Below, piece by piece: positions 21,725-33,519 of a DNA stretch of 35,390 bases. How positions within the stretch are numbered: the stretch's first letter is position 1; each line of letters starts with the position of its first letter. The stretch covers positions 1 to 35,390 of the forward strand of contig QWPW01000031.1 in NCBI GenBank assembly GCA_003671025.1. The letters are read 5' to 3'. Source of the DNA: Planctomycetota bacterium (GTDB lineage: Bacteria > Planctomycetota > Phycisphaerae > Phycisphaerales > SM1A02). Position numbers and translations under genes: made by a program. A model generated the notes under the pieces. The model was not told the DNA's origin. It saw only the letters and a program-made list of their open reading frames with translations, and ran no database searches.

Positions 21725-22702
21725 TCATGGCGTCGCGGGCGATGAAGGCGCGGTGCTCTTAGGTGTCGAGGGTTCACTCGACGATTCCGACGGCTTCGCA
21801 TCCGACGTCGTCGTCCACGGACGAACATCGATGGACCACTCTTTGGGATCAGGGGTCCCAATCGTGAGCAGCGCACGATCCGCATCGCTCACCGCTCCAT
21901 TGACCACCGGCGCATTGATGCGCGCCACCGTGAGGTTGCCGTTTTTCTCGCGCGAAACGACTCCAGTAAGCGCGAGAGTCGTGCGGTCATAGAACAGTTC
22001 GACGAAGAGCGTGTCCTTGGCCAAACTCGTGTCTGGCTTGGGAACCAAGCGCAATCCCGCGACATTCTGCAGCGAACCGAGCAGCGGAATGTCTTGCGGA
22101 ATTTCCTGTTCGCTCACATCAAAGCGCGCCAGCACGTCGGCACGTTTTTGTCCCATCGGAATCGGAATCGGACCTTCTCCTAGCGCAAGCGGATCGAGCG
22201 TTTGGCCTGGCGCCACGATCTGTCGCTTGGTGAACGACTTGTTGCGGTAGTCCTGTTCGCACAACCAACCGTCGGAATAAATCCAGTGATCGATGGAGCG
22301 ATCGCTGCGGCCCGAGCCATCGACAAACTCATCGAAATACAGGGCAAATCGGCGCGCGCCCAATGGAGGAGAGTTGACAGCGGGTTCTCCTGTGGTCGCG
22401 GGACTCACGATGGCGTCACTGCGTTCCATCACGAATCGGCCGTAACGCCGCTGGGTTTCTTCGACCAACGCATCGAATGATTCGAGTGCGAGCGCACCGC
22501 TCATCGACTTGATGGTGAACGACGTTTGCTCGAGCTCGCCGAGAAACGCATACACACGTGCAGCCGACGCAGCTTTCGCCACTGCGAGCGGATCGTCGCT
22601 TGTCGCTGCAGCGGGAGGTGTCACGGGAGTCGCGTCTTGCGACAACGCGTTGAAGACCGTGTTTGCCAGAGTGAGCGTCAGAGTTAGTGCGAGAACTTGC
22701 AT
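21725..22702 (-). CDS. LolA-like periplasmic lipoprotein-sorting-type protein
   Basis: A 325-aa exported protein with an N-terminal signal sequence (MQVLALTLTLTLANTVFNAL, then SQDATP). Residues about 50-240 contain a LolA-like beta fold pattern: RRYGRFVMERSD, RRFALYFDEFVDG, HWIYSDGWLCEQDYRNKSFT, LFVELFYDRTTLALTGVV. The C-terminal 25 residues are a Ser/Pro/Thr-rich tail. LolA-type proteins carry lipoproteins across the periplasm, but in Planctomycetota many secreted relatives of unknown function exist, so only the fold is suggested. Start ATG at 22702 follows no strong Shine-Dalgarno. The stop lies 7 nt from the convergent ribBA-like gene. Confidence 0.62.
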   Translation of the reverse strand: MQVLALTLTLTLANTVFNALSQDATPVTPPAAATSDDPLAVAKAASAARVYAFLGELEQTSFTIKSMSGALALESFDALVEETQRRYGRFVMERSDAIVSPATTGEPAVNSPPLGARRFALYFDEFVDGSGRSDRSIDHWIYSDGWLCEQDYRNKSFTKRQIVAPGQTLDPLALGEGPIPIPMGQKRADVLARFDVSEQEIPQDIPLLGSLQNVAGLRLVPKPDTSLAKDTLFVELFYDRTTLALTGVVSREKNGNLTVARINAPVVNGAVSDADRALLTIGTPDPKEWSIDVRPWTTTSDAKPSESSSEPSTPKSTAPSSPATP

Positions 22703-22838
22703 GCGGCACGGACGGTAGCCGAGCCTCGCGGATTCCGCCCGATCGAATCAACTCGCTGCTACTCTTCAAATCACTCGAGTGCGCAGCGTCCGCGAAGACT
22801 TGGTGCGCGAGGAACGTACCGCAACTCCTGCACAAATC

Positions 22839-25613
22839 ATGCTGACACTTCCGGTCTGCACTCCCTCGTTGACTGGTGCGTTGCGGCGCGAGGCGTGCGT
22901 CGTTCTGCTCGTTGCCATAGCGCTGTGCGGCGATGGCGCGCGTGCGCAAGACGAACTGGTTCCCGAGTCGATTGCTCCGTCGAGCGCAGTGCTCGAAGCA
23001 GCGTCCGCCGAATATCTCACCATCGACGAACGCCGCGAATTTCGCGTGCGGCACGGGCTTTACGACGATTCCGATCTCGATACGCCGACGCGCCGCGCGT
23101 TGGTGATGTTGGAGCGCGGTCGATACGGCGATGCGATGTTTGATGATGCGACGGTCGCGCTCGAGTTGCGTGTGCAAGCGTTGGCACGAGCCGGTCGGCA
23201 TGACGCGGTGTTGAATGCGACCCGTGAAAGCCCAGCACTTCCGGTGTCGCTGCCGTTGCTCGCGTTGCGCGCTGCGTCGCTTGCGGCGCTCGGTTCGCGC
23301 GCGGACGCGCTCGCGTTGTGCAACGACGCGCGTGCGCGCAAGGCGTTGATCGATGGCACGACCGTCGAAGATATTCTCGCCGCCGTTGATTTGGGCGCGT
23401 TGCGTATTCGTCTCGACTCCAGCGCCGCTGGTGAGTACGGCGCACTGCTCAAGGCGCTCGGTCGCGCGCGTTCAGAAATTGATGCGCTCGATTCGCGCGT
23501 GCGCTTACGCGAAGCGCAGTTGCTTTCCGATCGTCATGCCATGGCGCTTTCCGTTCGCGCGCTGAGTGAAGCACTCGCACTTGATCCGCGCGCGAGTGAC
23601 GCGTGGCGATTGCTCGGCGAAATCGCGTTGGCGCGCTTTGAGTTTGACGCCGTCGCGCGCGCCGTGTCCGCACTGCGTCGCATCGACAGCGCGCATCCAT
23701 ACGCGGCGATTCTCGAGTGCGCGAGCGCATTGGCGCAAGATGATCCAACCACCGCGCTCGCTGCGCTTGAGCCGAGTCTCCGCGACGAGAGCACGCGCGC
23801 GTCGGCTTTGCCTTGGCGCGCGGCGTGTGAAGCGTCGCGGTACGACTTCACTGCAATGCGCGCAACGCTCGCGCAATGTGACGCGTTGGAGCCAGCCTCG
23901 GCACAAGCTTTGGTGATTGTCGGCGCGCAGTTGGTGCTCGATCGTCAGTACGCAGAGGCGCGCGAGACGCTTGAACTCGCCGCAGCGCGTGAACCCGCAT
24001 GGGCTCGTCCCCGCGCGGAACTCGGCTTGCTCGCGATGCAAGATGGACTGGAATCGAAAGCGCTCGACGACTTGCGCGCCGCGACCGCGCTTGATCCGCA
24101 TGACGAGCGCACGCTGTTCACGCTGAAACTCGCGCAAGAGTTGGCTTCGTGGAAACGCATCGAAACCGCGCACTTCATCATTCGTCATCCCGACGGCGAC
24201 GCCGCGCTTGTCGCCGCACTCTTAGCCAAAACACTTGATGCGATGCACGAAGAAGTCTGCGCGCAACTCGGTCACGAGCCGTCGCAGAAGACGCTCATCG
24301 ATGTGATGCCTGACCACCGCAGTTTCGCTGTGCGCATCACAGGTCTTCCGCGCATTCACACCATTGCAGTGTGCACTGGTCCCACGATCGCCATCGAGAT
24401 TCCCAAAGAAGGCGCGCAGACGAAGCATCTCGGATTGTTTGATCCGCTCGCCGTGTTGCGTCACGAGTACACGCACACGGTCACGCTCTCGATGACCAAG
24501 AATCGCATTCCTCATTGGCTCACCGAAGCCGTCGCCGTGCAATTGGAAAACACGCCGCGCACGTTTGAGTCGTGTCAGTTGCTTGCGAACGCGTGGCGCC
24601 GCGGCGCGCTGTTTGATCTTGACGAGATCAACTGGGCCTTCGTGCGTCCGCGCCTCGCCAACGATCGCGCGCAGGCGTACGCACAAGGACATTGGATGGT
24701 CGAGTTTGCGCTGCAACGGTTTGGATGGGACGCGATGCGCACGTTGTTGTTTTCATACGCCGACGGTGTGCGCGAAGATGAAGCGATGCGCGCCGCGTTT
24801 GCGGTGACGCGCGCCGAGTTCTTCACTGAGTTTCTGACATGGGCCGCGAAGGAAGTGCGTGCGTGGGGACTTGATCCGCAACCACCGCTGCGCGAACTCT
24901 TGCAAGAACTTGTCGAAGGCGATGCGGCTGCGGAAATCGCAATGAAACAAGCGCGTGAGCAACGGCTCACCATGGTTGCGCAAGCGTGGAGCGCTGCCAT
25001 AGGCGCGCCGGGTTCGCAACGATTCAACTTGCGCGCGCACGACTGGCCCGATGATCCGATGCCGCAAGTCGAACTCGATGACGCGACTGCGCGCGCATTC
25101 TTGGCCTTGCATCCTGAGCACGGCGATCTCGCGGAAATCCTGCTGCGTCGCGCGCGTGTTGGTCAGCGCGATGAAACCGAAGCGACGCGCGCGTTGCTCG
25201 AGCAGTACGCGCGCGTTCGTCCCGTCGATCCCTTTCCGCATCGCGTGTGGGCGAGACTTACTGGAGTCGCGGGCGATGGTGATCTCGCCGCGCAAGCGGA
25301 CGATCGCGCGCTCGTTCATCTCGCGCAACTCGATGCACGCGCCGATAAGGACAACGTTTATGCGCTTGCCATCGCACGCAATCGCCGAGCTGCAGGCGAC
25401 TTGCCCGCTGCGAGCGTCGCGATCGAGCGCGCAGTACGAATGAATCCATTTGATGCATCTGTCCGCGAACTTGCTGCGGCAATCGCCGTAGAGGCGGGTC
25501 GACTCGATCTCGCGCAAATTCACGTTGAAGCGTTGGTCGTTCTCGAGCCTGATCGAACTGTACATCTCAAGCGCCTGACCAAACTGCACGAACTTCGCGG
25601 GACAACGCCTTAA
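22839..25613 (+). CDS. Secreted TPR-containing HExxH metallopeptidase-like protein
   Basis: A 924-aa exported protein with a signal sequence (ALRREACVVLLVAIALCG, cleavage near AQ-DE). Residues about 40-440 and 720-920 are TPR-like helical pairs (for example AMALSVRALSEALALDPRAS, SVAIERAVRMNPFDASV). In the middle, VLRHEYTHTVTLSM places HEYTH at 542-546 and a candidate third ligand Glu563 in HWLTEAVAVQ. This is the gluzincin arrangement of peptidase MA-like domains. The substrate is unknown; an envelope or secreted proteostasis role is inferred. ATG at 22839 is preferred because the signal follows it, though no good Shine-Dalgarno is seen. It diverges from the LolA-like gene. Confidence 0.82.
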   Translation: MLTLPVCTPSLTGALRREACVVLLVAIALCGDGARAQDELVPESIAPSSAVLEAASAEYLTIDERREFRVRHGLYDDSDLDTPTRRALVMLERGRYGDAMFDDATVALELRVQALARAGRHDAVLNATRESPALPVSLPLLALRAASLAALGSRADALALCNDARARKALIDGTTVEDILAAVDLGALRIRLDSSAAGEYGALLKALGRARSEIDALDSRVRLREAQLLSDRHAMALSVRALSEALALDPRASDAWRLLGEIALARFEFDAVARAVSALRRIDSAHPYAAILECASALAQDDPTTALAALEPSLRDESTRASALPWRAACEASRYDFTAMRATLAQCDALEPASAQALVIVGAQLVLDRQYAEARETLELAAAREPAWARPRAELGLLAMQDGLESKALDDLRAATALDPHDERTLFTLKLAQELASWKRIETAHFIIRHPDGDAALVAALLAKTLDAMHEEVCAQLGHEPSQKTLIDVMPDHRSFAVRITGLPRIHTIAVCTGPTIAIEIPKEGAQTKHLGLFDPLAVLRHEYTHTVTLSMTKNRIPHWLTEAVAVQLENTPRTFESCQLLANAWRRGALFDLDEINWAFVRPRLANDRAQAYAQGHWMVEFALQRFGWDAMRTLLFSYADGVREDEAMRAAFAVTRAEFFTEFLTWAAKEVRAWGLDPQPPLRELLQELVEGDAAAEIAMKQAREQRLTMVAQAWSAAIGAPGSQRFNLRAHDWPDDPMPQVELDDATARAFLALHPEHGDLAEILLRRARVGQRDETEATRALLEQYARVRPVDPFPHRVWARLTGVAGDGDLAAQADDRALVHLAQLDARADKDNVYALAIARNRRAAGDLPAASVAIERAVRMNPFDASVRELAAAIAVEAGRLDLAQIHVEALVVLEPDRTVHLKRLTKLHELRGTTP

Positions 25614-25749: not shown

Positions 25750-26817
25750 ATGAAGATCACTGCATCAACGTTCGCGGCACTCGCGATTGCAACCTCCGGC
25801 ACCACCTTGAGCATGTCGGCGCAATTCGCGCGCGCGAATGAAGTGGTGTTCGCATGTTCCGTGCTCAGTCAGAAGAGCACGATGGTGCAGACCACCGATG
25901 CCACCGCGCCGTTTGCGGGCACGTTCATCGGTAACTACGAAGTCACCACCAATCCTCTGGGAACTCGCACGATTCCTGGGTATTTCGGTGGCAGCGGCAA
26001 CAACGCGATTCCGTACACGGCGTCGTTCGTTCTTGCGGGCGACATCGACACACACCCGATGGGCACGCTCATCGTCGGGGTCGACAGCGAGACGCTGCAG
26101 ATTCGCGTGAGCAATCTCGCGCTTGATTTGCTCGGCGGCCAACCAGGGGTGCTCGGCGCGACCATCAACATCAACTACACGACTTTCCACACCGTCGCAC
26201 CGAACGCAATCTACCCCGGTGGCGTGACCATTCCGATTCCCGTGGGCAACGGCTCGGTCTCTACGCTGCGCATGACGCAGACTGGCAACAGCGCACTCGG
26301 TTTGCTCGTGCCCAACAAAGACGGCTCATCGACATTCACCATCGCGGTTCCCGTGGACATCGTGTTCGTCGCGGATCTTCTGGGCACGCCCATCAGCGAC
26401 GGCACGCCCACGCCAGGAATCTTGCCGCTCACGGGAACGCTCGTCGAAGGAAGCGACACGGTTGTGCTCTCACTTCAAGTGCAAGACTCGCAGTCGCAAG
26501 TGACGCCGCTCAATCTCGATCCGTTCGTTGATCAGCCACTCGCGCTGCCCACCATCATTCCTACCGGCGGCACAGCAAACTTGTTGCTGTCAGGTGATGT
26601 GACCGAACTCGCGCTCGCAACAACGCTCAACGCGACGCTCAAAGTCGCTGGCGAACGACAGGCGATCATCGGCGACCTCAACGGTGATAGTGTGGTCAAC
26701 GCCGCGGACCTCTCGATTCTGCTTTCGAATTGGGGAACAGCGGGACCTGGTGATCTCGATGGCAGCGGGACCGTCAATGCTCCGGATCTCAGTATTTTGC
26801 TGAGCAATTGGAGCTAA
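25750..26817 (+). CDS. Secreted protein with C-terminal dockerin type I domain
   Basis: A 355-aa protein. The N-terminal signal (MKITASTFAALAIATSGTTL ... ANE) is followed by an all-beta, Gly/Thr/Asn-rich region with no named domain that I recognise. Residues about 309-354 are a dockerin: two calcium-loop helices, GDLNGDSVVNAADLSILLSN and GDLDGSGTVNAPDLSILLSN, each with D-x-N/D-G-D/S-x-x-x-x-x-x-D spacing. Dockerins bind cohesins or act as C-terminal anchors; no cohesin is in the window. ATG at 25750 lacks a clear Shine-Dalgarno. It is the first of three consecutive secreted genes on the plus strand. Confidence 0.85.
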   Translation: MKITASTFAALAIATSGTTLSMSAQFARANEVVFACSVLSQKSTMVQTTDATAPFAGTFIGNYEVTTNPLGTRTIPGYFGGSGNNAIPYTASFVLAGDIDTHPMGTLIVGVDSETLQIRVSNLALDLLGGQPGVLGATININYTTFHTVAPNAIYPGGVTIPIPVGNGSVSTLRMTQTGNSALGLLVPNKDGSSTFTIAVPVDIVFVADLLGTPISDGTPTPGILPLTGTLVEGSDTVVLSLQVQDSQSQVTPLNLDPFVDQPLALPTIIPTGGTANLLLSGDVTELALATTLNATLKVAGERQAIIGDLNGDSVVNAADLSILLSNWGTAGPGDLDGSGTVNAPDLSILLSNWS

Positions 26818-26882
26818 TCGCGCCGCACACGCGCGGTTGCGGCGTACGAGTGAGTGAACTTGTTCCAAAGGAATCTCACTTG

Positions 26883-28358
26883 ATGCGTTGCGTCACACCA
26901 TTCATCTTTGCGTGCTTCGGAGGCGGCTTCGTGTTGTGTGTTGGGTCGACGCACGCACATGCAGCGATGCGCGATGAGACGCCGCTCGTCTTCACGCAGC
27001 CGACCTACGACTTGTTGCCTGCGCCGTTTTTTCCAACGATGGTGAAGCCGCGCGATCTTGATGGTGACGGCATTGTCGATCTCGTGGTGCCTGGCCGCGA
27101 TCCTGAGAAACGTCTGTTCACTATGCGTGGCGTAGGCGACGGTCACTTCGTTCCGCTGCAAACATTGGTCGCCGAGAGTTTCGTCGATTGGGTCGACCTC
27201 GCCGATATCGACAACGATGGCCACGATGACATCGTCGCCGCGTGGCGCGGAGATTTTCCGCGACTGGTTGCGTATCGCGGACTCGGCGGCGGAGTGTTCG
27301 CCGAAGCGACAGTACTCGTCGGGCTTGAGTTGGGAATGGGTCGCGATCCGCAAGGGCTTGCCATCGGCGATTTTGATGGCGATCAAGACATCGACATTGC
27401 AGTGACGCAATACGTGGGCGGCGCCATCGAGGTGTTTTCCAATCTCGGAAATCTGCTGTTCGAGCGCACCGATCGTGTGCGCGTCGGTTCATTCCTCGGC
27501 GGCTATCAATATCCGCGCATGACTTTCGCGTCTGACATCGATGGCGATAGTGACCTCGACCTTATCGCCAACGAACTCGGTGGAAGTCGCATCGCGGTGA
27601 GTCGCAATCACAACGGTCGCTTCGCGCGCGCAGTCGAGTATCGCGTTCCGCAAATCGGCAAAGAGCGACCAGGCATCGCGAGCATGATGATGGCGGACGT
27701 CGAAGGTGATGGCGATAGCGACATCGTGGTTGCCGCGCTCCTGCTCGCGCCGGAACAAAAGCTGGTCGCGTTCATCAACGATGGAACGGGCGATTTCTCG
27801 CAGCGCATCGTGGGACGAAGCTCGCCCTTTGGTTACGCGTTTTCCCTGGAAATGGCGGACTTTGATGGCGACGGAGATCTTGATGCTGCCACTGGCGTCG
27901 CCTTGCCGGGCATGGTCGCGGTAGGACGACGCACTGCGCTCGGTGAGTTTGATTTCTCGATCGACGCATTGTTGCCGTTAGGGCAACTCATTCGCCACAT
28001 CTCTGCCGTCGATCTTGATGGCGACTGCGATCTTGACATCGTTGGTGTGGATGGACCCTCGCGCGCAGTGTTCAGTTCGATCAACAACACATCAGCCGCA
28101 GGTTGCGGAGGCGGCGTCGCTGCGACGACAAATGCGCGCAAGCATGTCGATCAATCAAACGTGACCGCGCTGGTCACGACGCCCGCGCTCAAGCTCATCA
28201 CGGCAGACAGAAATGGCGACGGAGTGCGCGACGCGATCGATGTCGCAGTGTGGCTCGCATCCCAATCGACCGTGACGCCATCAACGACATCGTCAACATC
28301 GCCAACAACAACGCCGTCACGCACGAGTGATCACTCCACATCGGAGAAACGCGAGTGA
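26883..28358 (+). CDS. Secreted FG-GAP/VCBS-repeat protein with dockerin-like half repeat
   Basis: A 491-aa protein with a signal peptide (FIFACFGGGFVLCVGSTHAH). Seven calcium-loop motifs of the FG-GAP/VCBS type are visible: DLDGDGIVDLVV, DIDNDGHDDIVA, DFDGDQDIDIAV, DIDGDSDLDLIA, DVEGDGDSDIVV, DFDGDGDLDAAT and DLDGDCDLDIVG, consistent with one seven-bladed beta propeller. Near the C-terminus a single half-dockerin (ADRNGDGVRDAIDVAVWLAS) precedes a Ser/Thr/Pro-rich tail ending in a charged KRE. ATG at 26883 has AAAGGA upstream. Its stop overlaps the GTG of the next gene by four bases (GTGA), indicating coupled expression. Likely an extracellular or surface calcium-binding scaffold. Confidence 0.85.
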   Translation: MRCVTPFIFACFGGGFVLCVGSTHAHAAMRDETPLVFTQPTYDLLPAPFFPTMVKPRDLDGDGIVDLVVPGRDPEKRLFTMRGVGDGHFVPLQTLVAESFVDWVDLADIDNDGHDDIVAAWRGDFPRLVAYRGLGGGVFAEATVLVGLELGMGRDPQGLAIGDFDGDQDIDIAVTQYVGGAIEVFSNLGNLLFERTDRVRVGSFLGGYQYPRMTFASDIDGDSDLDLIANELGGSRIAVSRNHNGRFARAVEYRVPQIGKERPGIASMMMADVEGDGDSDIVVAALLLAPEQKLVAFINDGTGDFSQRIVGRSSPFGYAFSLEMADFDGDGDLDAATGVALPGMVAVGRRTALGEFDFSIDALLPLGQLIRHISAVDLDGDCDLDIVGVDGPSRAVFSSINNTSAAGCGGGVAATTNARKHVDQSNVTALVTTPALKLITADRNGDGVRDAIDVAVWLASQSTVTPSTTSSTSPTTTPSRTSDHSTSEKRE

Positions 28359-29440
28359 AGCACACAGCGTTCATCACAGCGTTCATCACCGGTGGAATCG
28401 TCGCGTTGAGCGCACTCGTCGCGGGTATCACCGATGCGAGTCATGCACAGTGCCCCGCCGAGGGAGATTGCCGCAAGGTTCACCCAACGCCAGGCTGCGA
28501 CATGCCCGAATGTTGCACCATCGTGTGCGAGGCCAATCCGTTGTGTTGCGAATTTACGTGGGACCAAGCGTGCGCCGACTTCGCGATTCTTAGTTGCGCC
28601 GACATCAATTGTCCTTCCGATGGCTTGTGCACGCAGGTGCATGCCAGTCCTGGTTGCGCCGACTTCGAGTGCTGCGAGTTGGTCACGATTCTTGATGGGT
28701 GGTGCAGTTACGCGGCGTGGGATGAAGTCTGCGCGCGCGAAGCGTTGGCGCTCTGCGGCGTGACTCCGTGCGTCATCGCATTGCCCACGCTTCTCGATGA
28801 AGACGAACCGTGCTACGAACGATTCAATGACGGCTGCTCGATCACGTTCTCGCTCGGGCGCATCGAACTTCCCTGCGCGACACCGATGAAGGGTCGCATC
28901 GTGAGCGGTGGCCCGCGTGACACCGATTGGTTCGCGCTTGATGGCGCGACTCGTCGGCGATATCGCTTCACGCTCGACGCAGAATTTCCCATCGAACTGC
29001 AGTTGTTCGAAGGCGATTGCGAAGGCCCGAATCACGTCGAATGGTTGATCGGCGAAGAGCTCTGCGTCGGCGCGCACACGCTGGTGTTTCTTGTTGACTC
29101 TGGTGTGCAATCGCTCGTTCTCGGCGCGGGAAACGAAGATCGTGCGTTGCGCTCGGGCCTCGAGTGCGACGACATCGACCCTGAAAATCCGCCCGAACCC
29201 GATGATCCACCAGCGTTGCAAGTGTTCGGCGTGCATTGGATTGCGCGCCTCGATTGCCTCGCGCTAGGCGACATCAATGGCGATGGTTTGGTCAACGCGG
29301 TTGATATTGGCACACTGCTCAACGCCTGGGGTGAGGTCGATGCCTCATCGGCGCGCGACCCGCGATTGGCCGATGCGGACCTCGACGGGAACGGGCGCGT
29401 TGATGCCGCGGATCTCACCGTACTTCTTTCGTCGTGGTGA
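28355..29440 (+). CDS. Secreted protein with two Cys-rich modules and a C-terminal dockerin
   Basis: A 361-aa protein starting at GTG 28355, overlapping the previous stop by four bases, with GGAG nearby upstream. A signal peptide (about 1-31) is followed by two 49-aa modules, Cys33-Cys81 and Cys86-Cys134, each with the pattern C-P-x-x-G-x-C-x-x-V-H-x-x-P-G-C-x-x-x-E-C-C and a W-D-x-x-C-A/A-R...A-x-x-x-C end. This pattern recurs in Phycisphaerae secreted proteins as I recall it. A beta-rich region (140-260) with more cysteines follows, then a dockerin near 305-360 (GDINGDGLVNAVDIGTLLNA and ADLDGNGRVDAADLTVLLSS). Extracellular function is inferred. Confidence 0.82.
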   Translation: MKHTAFITAFITGGIVALSALVAGITDASHAQCPAEGDCRKVHPTPGCDMPECCTIVCEANPLCCEFTWDQACADFAILSCADINCPSDGLCTQVHASPGCADFECCELVTILDGWCSYAAWDEVCAREALALCGVTPCVIALPTLLDEDEPCYERFNDGCSITFSLGRIELPCATPMKGRIVSGGPRDTDWFALDGATRRRYRFTLDAEFPIELQLFEGDCEGPNHVEWLIGEELCVGAHTLVFLVDSGVQSLVLGAGNEDRALRSGLECDDIDPENPPEPDDPPALQVFGVHWIARLDCLALGDINGDGLVNAVDIGTLLNAWGEVDASSARDPRLADADLDGNGRVDAADLTVLLSSW

Positions 29441-30289: not shown

Positions 30290-30940
30290 ATGACACACGA
30301 ACACGTTCAAGGTCACGTTGACCAGTGCGAATCGAATCACGCAACCAACGTGCTGTGCAGCGCGAGTGATCTTCTTCTCTCACGCGCGGTGCAAGGCGAC
30401 CGTGACGCGATGGCCACGATTTGCGCGAGCAGCGCGACGAATCCATCGTTGTTGCAGGAACTCGCTGCGTGGCAGGCTGATGAATTGCGTCTCGCACGCG
30501 CCGCGCGCGAACTCGATGTGTATGCCGACAACGCGTCGCTGCCGCAAGCCGATGCGCGCGCATTGCGACGTGATGGATTAGGTTGGCTTGTCGCCGCCAT
30601 CCTCGTGGTCGCGCTCGCAGGTGATCGGTTTCTTGCGGCACCGACCCATGAACGCGTGAATGTTGCGGGCATCGCTGGGCCAACGATTTCCACGGCCGAT
30701 CAAGCGTTCGACGCGTATCTCGAGAAGGGACGCGCCGAGGGATTGGTGCTCGGTGATGTCGCGCCACCAACATTCGTTCAATCACGAGAACTCGGCGAAG
30801 GCCGCGGTTTCGAAGTCATCGTCATGCGCCAAATCTACGAGCGTCGCACCATGCCGCAGATGTATCGCATGGAACCGACTGGTGAAACGGGACGCATGCG
30901 CGCTGTAGTCGTTCGTCCGCGGACGGATCTTTTGCAGTGA
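30290..30940 (+). CDS. Putative membrane anti-sigma factor
   Basis: A 216-aa protein 15 nt after the ECF sigma gene. Residues 1-85 are an alpha-helical cytoplasmic domain, and one hydrophobic helix (about 97-118, GWLVAAILVVALAGDRFLAA) is followed by a 100-aa, probably periplasmic, domain. This topology and gene order are those of anti-sigma factors, but no ZAS zinc motif (H-x3-C-x2-C) is present, so the family is unassigned. Its N-terminal segment LLSRAVQGDRDAMATI resembles LVSRAIDGDRDAVAEI near the start of the sigma factor. It likely sequesters the sigma factor at the inner membrane. Confidence 0.65.
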   Translation: MTHEHVQGHVDQCESNHATNVLCSASDLLLSRAVQGDRDAMATICASSATNPSLLQELAAWQADELRLARAARELDVYADNASLPQADARALRRDGLGWLVAAILVVALAGDRFLAAPTHERVNVAGIAGPTISTADQAFDAYLEKGRAEGLVLGDVAPPTFVQSRELGEGRGFEVIVMRQIYERRTMPQMYRMEPTGETGRMRAVVVRPRTDLLQ

Positions 30941-32529: not shown

Positions 32530-33519
32530 TCAATCGAACGGCAACGCAGCGAGATCAACATTGCCGCCGCAGAGAATCACGCCGACATCCGCGAGGTCGT
32601 GCTGTTGACGCATCCACGCGCTGCAGGCCACAGCAACGGCGACGGCCGCACTTGGTTCGATAGTGATCTTCATGCGCTCCCACACCAAGCGCATGTGCAG
32701 CGCGATGTCATCCTCTGACACCAATACGATTTCATCGACGAGATCACGCACGACGGGAAACGTGAGCGGACCAAGCGCGGTGCGCAATCCGTCGGCGATG
32801 GTGAGCGGTGTCATTGCCGGTTGAATGGAACCTTCGCGCTTGGAGGCGGCCGCGTCGCCCGCGAGTTCTGGTTCCGCACCAATGATCTTGATCGAAGGCT
32901 TGAGTGCTTTAGCCGCGATGGCAATGCCGGAGATGAGACCGCCGCCACCGAGAGGCACGATGATGCAATCGAGTTGCGGACATTCATCGAGCAGCTCGAG
33001 CGCGATCGTTCCTTGTCCCGCGATTACGTTGGGATGATTGAACGGAGGAATCATCGTGCCGCCCGTTTGCGCGAGCACGCGCGCGGCGGTGGACTCGCGC
33101 GCTTCGAGCGTCGCCTCGCACTCGATGATGGTCGCGCCATATCCGCGCACCGCGTCCTTCTTGATTTGCGCCGAGTTCGAAGGCATCACCACATGCGCCG
33201 AGATTCCACGCATGCGCGCTGCGAGTGCTAAGGCTTGCGCGTGATTGCCCGACGAATGCGTGACCACTCCGCGCGCGGCCGATTCATCATCAATCATGCG
33301 AATGGCGTTGGTCGCGCCGCGAAACTTGAACGACCCTGTGCGTTGAAAGATCTCGCACTTGAACGCGAGACGGCGACCACTGATCTCATCCAGTGTCGCG
33401 CTGGTGAGCACGGGCGTGCGCAGCGCAAACGGTTCGATGCGTCGACGCGCGGCGCGAATCGAATCAAGATCGGCGGCGTAACACATGGGAGCAACAGCAG
33501 CGTCATGGCGAGGAGTCAT
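32530..33519 (-). CDS. Serine racemase/threonine dehydratase-like PLP enzyme
   Basis: A 329-aa fold-type II PLP enzyme without an ACT domain, which fits serine racemase, catabolic threonine dehydratase or threo-3-hydroxyaspartate ammonia-lyase. The PLP lysine lies in RTGSFKFRGA, the substrate loop is THSSGNHAQALALAA, the phosphate-binding loop is PLGGGGLISG, and the C-terminal CGGNVD is present. Metal-loop and beta-replacement residues cannot be assigned safely, so the substrate is open. ATG at 33519 is the longest start; a shorter one at 33486 (MCYAADL) is also possible. Only 17 nt, all palindromic, separate 33519 from the divergent GTG of the RNase gene. Confidence 0.85.
   Translation of the reverse strand: MTPRHDAAVAPMCYAADLDSIRAARRRIEPFALRTPVLTSATLDEISGRRLAFKCEIFQRTGSFKFRGATNAIRMIDDESAARGVVTHSSGNHAQALALAARMRGISAHVVMPSNSAQIKKDAVRGYGATIIECEATLEARESTAARVLAQTGGTMIPPFNHPNVIAGQGTIALELLDECPQLDCIIVPLGGGGLISGIAIAAKALKPSIKIIGAEPELAGDAAASKREGSIQPAMTPLTIADGLRTALGPLTFPVVRDLVDEIVLVSEDDIALHMRLVWERMKITIEPSAAVAVAVACSAWMRQQHDLADVGVILCGGNVDLAALPFD

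Follow-up and report, generated by a model that had tools for sequence, protein, structure and literature searches.

Are three adjacent genes for secreted proteins, two of which end in a dockerin and one in half a dockerin, the parts of one cell-surface assembly, or an ordinary cluster whose products share a common tail? The question is raised by a 35,390-nucleotide stretch of a Planctomycetota bacterium (GTDB lineage Phycisphaerae; Phycisphaerales; SM1A02; assembly GCA_003671025.1, contig QWPW01000031.1, positions 1 to 35,390 of the forward strand), which we call the window and which forms contig 25 of a genome of 3.25 Mb, 96% complete. The three genes are here named P1, P2 and P3. From their domains, synteny, overlap and fusion, and from dockerin and cohesin counts, we infer that P2 and P3 may form one ligand-binding surface complex held by the dockerin of P3, with P1 as a separately docked beta-barrel, a reading in which our confidence is evenly balanced. 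An initial annotation had described three consecutive secreted proteins with complete dockerins in the first and third, a lone half repeat in the second, and translational coupling of the last two at a GTGA. The three consecutive plus-strand open reading frames (ORFs) were confirmed, as were the complete dockerins (by a Pfam scan) and the half repeat (from the sequence itself); the N-terminal signal peptides of the trio proteins were judged by eye only. The features of the trio are as follows.

25750 to 26817, plus strand: P1, a beta-strand protein of 355 aa with a signal peptide (by eye), a predicted beta-barrel and a C-terminal dockerin.
26671 to 26814, plus strand: dockerin of P1, two F-hand repeats (PF00404, 24.3 bits, gathering cut-off 22.9).
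26883 to 28358, plus strand: P2, an FG-GAP propeller protein of 491 aa (start codon picked by eye).
28206 to 28259, plus strand: half-dockerin of P2, a single F-hand near the C-terminus, DRNGDGVRDAIDVAVWLA, read from the sequence.
28355 to 28358, plus strand: GTGA stop/start overlap of P2 and P3 (P3 GTG at 28355-28357, P2 TGA at 28356-28358).
28355 to 29440, plus strand: P3, 361 aa, with a signal peptide (by eye), two cysteine (Cys) modules, a PPC-like domain and a dockerin.
28451 to 28597, plus strand: Cys module 1 of P3 (invariant Cys columns in the alignment).
28610 to 28756, plus strand: Cys module 2 of P3 (invariant Cys columns in the alignment).
28787 to 29257, plus strand: PPC / collagen-binding-like beta-sandwich of P3 (predicted fold).
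29267 to 29437, plus strand: dockerin of P3 (PF00404, 33.7 bits, cut-off 22.9).

The junction between P2 and P3 carries the clearest signal of a joint product. Among 35 loci that contain both genes, counting the window, 23 have them unfused and 12 fused into one frame. All 23 unfused loci, drawn from 12 genera, have a P3-frame start codon at position -1 of the P2 stop (ATGA, GTGA or TTGA, hereafter NTGA). The GTGA overlap described initially is thus real and more than chance; in 12 of the 23 this start is also the sole candidate near the junction. At the other junctions of the same loci, where P4 is a gene upstream of the trio, NTGA was seen in 0/10 cases from P4 to P1, 0/8 from P1 to P2, 0/12 from P4 to P2 and 2/14 from P3 to P1. 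A second, overlapping set taken from named contigs gave the same two arrangements, with 9 unfused pairs (all NTGA), 22 fused pairs and 2 truncated by the end of a contig. Along a 69-row tree of P3, in which many genomes appear twice under two names, the fused or split label changes 4 times, with at least 3 of the changes forced by well-supported branches, compared with a mean of 23.4 for shuffled labels. Of the 12 fused proteins, 11 have a single dockerin match, at the C-terminus and shared by both halves; the remaining one (L127) has a second match. This recurrent fusion or fission, with the four-base overlap as its sole alternative, points to fixed joint production and a joint product, and suggests from sequence that the products of P2 and P3 work as one unit.

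The pair is also kept together across relatives. In a family sample of 81 genomes from 45 genera, where full length of P1 and P3 was judged from query ranges and genome lists were compiled by hand, full-length P3 was found in 41 genomes and P1 in 52, with both in 32 (Fisher p 0.011). P2 adjoins P3, as judged by eye, in 40/41 genomes with full-length P3, and in the exception (G084) P3 stands at a contig end. Where P1 and P3 are both present (32 genomes), P1 is next to the pair in 22, upstream in 8 loci and downstream in 14. P2 and P3 are therefore co-conserved and their proximity is not accidental, and P1 is a looser partner; the possibility raised initially, that the three genes are not co-conserved, is rejected on these counts, with P1 tied less tightly than the other two. 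An order-wide search (201 genomes, E <= 1e-30) gave P3-like matches in 46 genomes, all within the family and some with paralogues only. Named genome contigs, when scanned, yielded 33 loci, all of which encode the pair or part of it; 29 are titled planctomycetes, several with lake names. Five loci (L154, L137, L147, L149, L167) have record titles of Chitinophaga pinensis, Kuenenia or Singulisphaera, and these labels look wrong. In the parts available of the literature on dockerins, cohesins and the planctosome (including PMC6461901, PMC8542988 and PMC11557425), no description of the trio locus was found.

P2 matches FG-GAP_3 in six stretches (E 3.9e-39 in the Pfam scan) and has no PF00404 match at E<=1, as its tail holds one repeat of the two that make a dockerin. 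Among the tails of unfused P2 proteins, read by eye (n=23, window included), 17 carry a single F-hand, one of them (L124) weak. In fused loci the segment between the P2 and P3 parts is without a calcium loop in 11/12, and L127 retains the loop. The pattern agrees with a second dockerin having decayed when P3 already supplied one, as far as tail sequences can indicate, and a role for the half-dockerin is also possible.

P3 was modelled with a predicted local distance difference test score (pLDDT) of 77.5, its Cys modules being small, helical and of lower confidence. The best structural match of its sandwich is the ColG collagen-binding domain 5iku (Z 9.2, root mean square deviation (rmsd) 2.8, 111 residues aligned), and 1nqd_A was found by Foldseek at E 4.7e-4; the Pfam scan gave no PPC match to this middle domain at E<=1, so the similarity is at the level of fold only. 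The P3 dockerin model aligns with the dockerin 2y3n_B (Z 7.7, rmsd 1.6, 54 aligned), and several calcium-loop residues are invariant in 26 rows, window included. When P1 and P3 profiles were compared with solved structures, cellulosomal dockerins came out best (2y3n_B, 6kg9_A, 1daq_A; E down to 2.6e-7), and the P3 profile also matched calmodulins more weakly (about 2e-4 and up). Alignment A9 is a 26-row subset of A6 (34 rows); A4 keeps 11 of the 32 rows in A3, whose divergence was too great for the scan. Paralogues of the Cys-PPC part of P3 occur elsewhere in many family genomes (for example G000:C32:15595-18616), some of them in neighbouring larger ORFs.

P1 was predicted (pLDDT 79, predicted TM-score 0.66) as a long-stranded barrel followed by a well-predicted dockerin, which aligns with 2y3n_B at Z 9.7 (rmsd 1.7, 54 aligned). 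The best VIA-align 2 rows for the barrel are OmpA/NspA-like barrels (Z 12.4, rmsd 2.9-3.5, 144-156 aligned), and YceI-like barrels reach Z about 9 in the same comparison. Since Foldseek TM-scores by query length are at most 0.29 among the 50 matches listed, the barrel was classed neither as membrane nor as soluble. P1 was also considered as a cohesin-like partner and rejected, as no cohesin chain fell on the barrel among the 50 matches listed. In G024, a genome with one dockerin match, P1 is without a dockerin.

Taken together with the domains, these arrangements can be read as follows. P2 and P3 would be made as an obligate pair, by coupled translation here and as a single fused polypeptide in many relatives, and the pair would be exported to stand together on the surface as one complex. 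The calcium-binding FG-GAP propeller of P2 would be the ligand- or partner-facing part, P3 would add the Cys modules and the PPC-like sandwich, and the C-terminal dockerin of P3 would hold the complex to a cell-surface partner. P2 would need no full dockerin because P3 carries one, and its half-dockerin would most likely be a leftover or an accessory contact. P1, the third product of the locus, would be a beta-barrel docking by its own dockerin.

The rival that survives best holds that the dockerin is a C-terminal export, folding or protease-protection tag without a partner and that the trio is an ordinary secreted cluster. We regard it as unlikely, although its premise, that dockerins are generic tails in this lineage, had been allowed for in the initial annotation and proved largely true. 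The genome has at least 45 dockerin matches, and in 28 of 30 dockerin loci inspected the protein ends 2-9 residues past the domain (of the other two, one runs past the end of its contig and one belongs to a longer array). The proteins that bear dockerins vary in kind: the 28 scanned include four peptidases (M12B, M10 and two S8), four FG-GAP proteins and single owners such as a GSDH and a YHYH protein. That scan took 28 of the 45 matches, with L004 and L006 covered separately and many frames cut 500 aa upstream. With such positions and such varied owners, the dockerin is in this genome a tail that many secreted proteins have at their C-terminus. A GH13 alpha-amylase with a dockerin lies elsewhere in the genome, and the initial statement that no glycoside hydrolase is present thus holds for the nine ORFs in and around the trio, the only ones tested, and fails for the genome. 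Across the family, dockerins occur in 79/81 genomes and cohesins in 16/81. The dockerin counts are lower bounds, because the P1 dockerin is absent from the list of 45 and at most 69 candidates were scored per family genome; the profile used on relatives' loci left out L014 and L026. Genomes with P3 have a median of 30 dockerins, versus 15 in those without it (p 0.0006, uncorrected for relatedness and genome size). The NCBIfam model dockerin_GC (NF041540) matches the genome 51 times, 21 times above its cut-off, and some of these places are also among the dockerin matches; it has no match in 14 control genomes, and P1, P2 and P3 do not match it (cut-off 29 bits). At the positions that we take to set cohesin specificity, 29 dockerins have mostly A/G-A, which was not used. 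One dockerin match (G049:C64:6794-6946) lies in an ORF of 7994 codons. Against a tag without a partner stand the dockerins of P1 and P3 themselves, which keep both calcium loops and resemble cohesin-bound solved dockerins in sequence and predicted fold; such a tag also leaves the coupling and fusion of P2 and P3 unexplained.

A second rival makes the trio planctosome cargo, with the dockerins of P1 and P3 plugged into anchor and adaptor cohesins and the trio forming the non-catalytic part of a proteolytic complex. The available parts of PMC6461901 describe the planctosome as an anchor of about 2.2 kaa (lamin tail domain (LTD), P-domains, TSP3, cohesin) with an adaptor (cohesin, HYR, dockerin) and with dockerin-bearing M12B and M14 peptidases, and attribute it to freshwater Nemodlikiaceae of lakes. 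The contig of the trio has no PF00963 match, and the initial statement that no cohesin is present is right to that extent; the genome has two cohesins, in two proteins encoded on contig 36, outside the trio. The anchor-like one is a 2228-aa ORF (in L033) with LTD, P_proprotein P-domains and TSP_3, whose cohesin scored 28.6 bits in a six-frame search (cut-off 24.1) and is missing from a Pfam scan of the whole protein at E<=0.01. The adaptor-like one is a 526-aa ORF with Cohesin (38.4 bits), Dockerin_1 (31.4) and HYR (19.7, cut-off 21.7). Beside a cohesin gene on the same contig lies the gene of a 259-aa protein (L033:13840-14619 of genome G000). Its tail, judged by eye, resembles a dockerin, and its N-terminal half looks like a cohesin, being 25% identical to that of the adaptor when these two sequences are aligned; Pfam has no match to the protein at E<=0.01. 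Two cohesin matches in two proteins and no multi-cohesin scaffoldin bear out the earlier view that this is not a standard cellulosome.

The proposal of planctosome cargo is strong within the genus of the window: both cohesin proteins recall those in the available parts of PMC6461901, the dockerin proteins include the M12B, M10 and S8 peptidases, and PF00963, run on this genome and 40 relatives, matched 14/41, split into 12/16 in the same genus, 1/9 in the rest of the family and 1/16 in the rest of the order. Beyond the genus it fares worse. No cohesin was matched in 31 of the 41 family genomes with P3, including G004, of the same genus, 97% complete and unmatched by PF00963 as well, and G047, by a profile built from 29 cohesins, mostly of that genus (L056, one of 30 fetched loci, and matches without a locus were left out). 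P1 and P3 keep their dockerins in the cohesin-less genomes examined, G047 included, and the P3 of G047 has zero branch length in the P3 tree from that of the lake metagenome-assembled genome (MAG) ZH-13MAY13-plancto70, which PMC6461901, in its available parts, names beside Nemodlikiaceae without placing it there outright. The planctosome-like genes and G047 are the basis for linking the genome of the window to Nemodlikiaceae. Within this genome, two cohesins face at least 45 dockerins. Divergent cohesins or incomplete genomes could be behind part of the scarcity, and the counts suggest a planctosome that is patchy in the wider family. Because cohesin and trio show no association in the family, planctosome cargo is not our leading reading, and we hold it to be rather doubtful, a little more so than the generic tail.

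The weakest rival, akin to the surface-attachment or matrix system suggested initially, is matrix or particle adhesion: the propeller and the PPC-like domain would bind polymers or particles, and the dockerins would link the proteins to one another. We consider this improbable. In its favour, the FG-GAP and PPC/collagen-binding-like folds, both present in the pair, serve for binding in other proteins, and the named-contig loci, several with lake-named titles, all encode the pair or part of it; against it, the genome shows two single cohesins and no multi-cohesin scaffold.

Returning to a P2-P3 surface complex held by the dockerin of P3, several observations weigh against it. In 11 of the 23 unfused loci further P3-frame start codons lie near the junction, which leaves room for translation of P3 from a start other than that of the NTGA. 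P1 occurs without P3 in 20/81 family genomes and P3 without P1 in 9/81, and the trio is hence not one obligate unit. The calcium loop is lost in 5 of the 23 unfused P2 proteins, and the P2 of G043 has a complete dockerin of its own (1/23). Cohesins are matched in 10/41 genomes with P3 versus 6/40 without it (Fisher p 0.40), and median dockerin numbers are 26 with a cohesin versus 24 without (p 0.38). Lastly, a dockerin that is a lineage-wide tail need not mean a special complex.

As partners of such a P2-P3 complex, the two cohesins encoded on contig 36, in the planctosome-like proteins, are candidates in this genome; in most relatives the partner would be a receptor unrecognised by present cohesin models. 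Dockerin and cohesin are treated as lock and key, and a family with near-universal dockerins and few detectable cohesins presents a lock mostly without a known key. We also entertain the broader idea, more doubtful than the surface complex itself, that the dockerins of this lineage dock onto a receptor other than a recognisable cohesin, in a surface display system based on dockerins and independent of cohesins, with P2-P3 (and P1) as one client and the planctosome as a later, patchy add-on. The P2-P3 pair, overlapping or fused in every locus examined, is a well-defined client for fishing out the missing receptor.

The surroundings of the trio are partly conserved, and the neighbours concerned are these.

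22779 to 25613, plus strand: P4, a TPR protein with a Peptidase_MA domain and no dockerin, a conserved neighbour (start unsure).
21725 to 22702, minus strand: U21, an unnamed conserved neighbour gene, in relatives on the strand of P4.
32530 to 33519, minus strand: a threonine/hydroxyaspartate dehydratase-like pyridoxal-phosphate enzyme (PF00291, E 1.1e-78).

A frequent order of the cluster is U21-P4-(P1)-P2-P3-(P1)-dehydratase, the dehydratase-like gene being the end of the cluster in many relatives. In other loci, among them L117, L119, L121-L123 and L125-L128, the pair is fused and the fetched stretch is without P4 and P1. U21 has no match in Pfam or NCBIfam. At the U21-P4 junction a candidate P4-frame start codon overlaps the U21 stop (NTGA) in 12 of 16 same-strand family loci, which makes this the one junction that resembles that of P2 and P3; in the window U21 lies on the strand opposite to P4. 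Downstream of P3, the ORF that follows an ECF sigma factor meets a PDZ ORF at a GTGA (30937-30940, from ORF coordinates), which may be chance, since an internal start would give the PDZ protein a more signal-like N-terminus. This sigma/PDZ group lies downstream of P3 in the genus of the window, and PDZ alone in a near group. A promoter and terminator scan gave nothing useful.

How does the locus compare with known systems? The middle domain of P3 is like the PPC / bacterial collagen-binding domains of ColG/ColH in predicted fold, and differs in sequence (about 15% identity in the structural alignment), so that collagen binding is not implied. The dockerin_GC family ("GC-type dockerin domain-anchored protein") expresses the same idea of a C-terminal tail, and the trio itself is unmatched by it. 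As regards the planctosome, the genome has an anchor and an adaptor of domain content like that in the available parts of PMC6461901, the anchor also of like size, and some of its secreted peptidases likewise bear dockerins, M12B (L010) among them; no M14 peptidase was seen among the 28 dockerin proteins scanned, with many frames cut 500 aa upstream and 15 matches unscanned. In contrast to those same parts of PMC6461901, the adaptor domains here follow another order than the list given there, the FG-GAP/Cys/PPC pair and the beta-barrel dockerin protein are not mentioned in them, and the trio is present in many genomes without a detectable cohesin. The setting is likewise non-cellulosomal: no dockerin-bearing cellulase was seen among the 30 dockerin loci fetched (the other 15 matches unscanned, frames cut 500 aa upstream), and cohesins are rare in the family (16/81). 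Even so, P1 and P3 agree with the type I dockerin (PF00404) in both model and predicted fold, and the solved cellulosomal dockerins are their best relatives.

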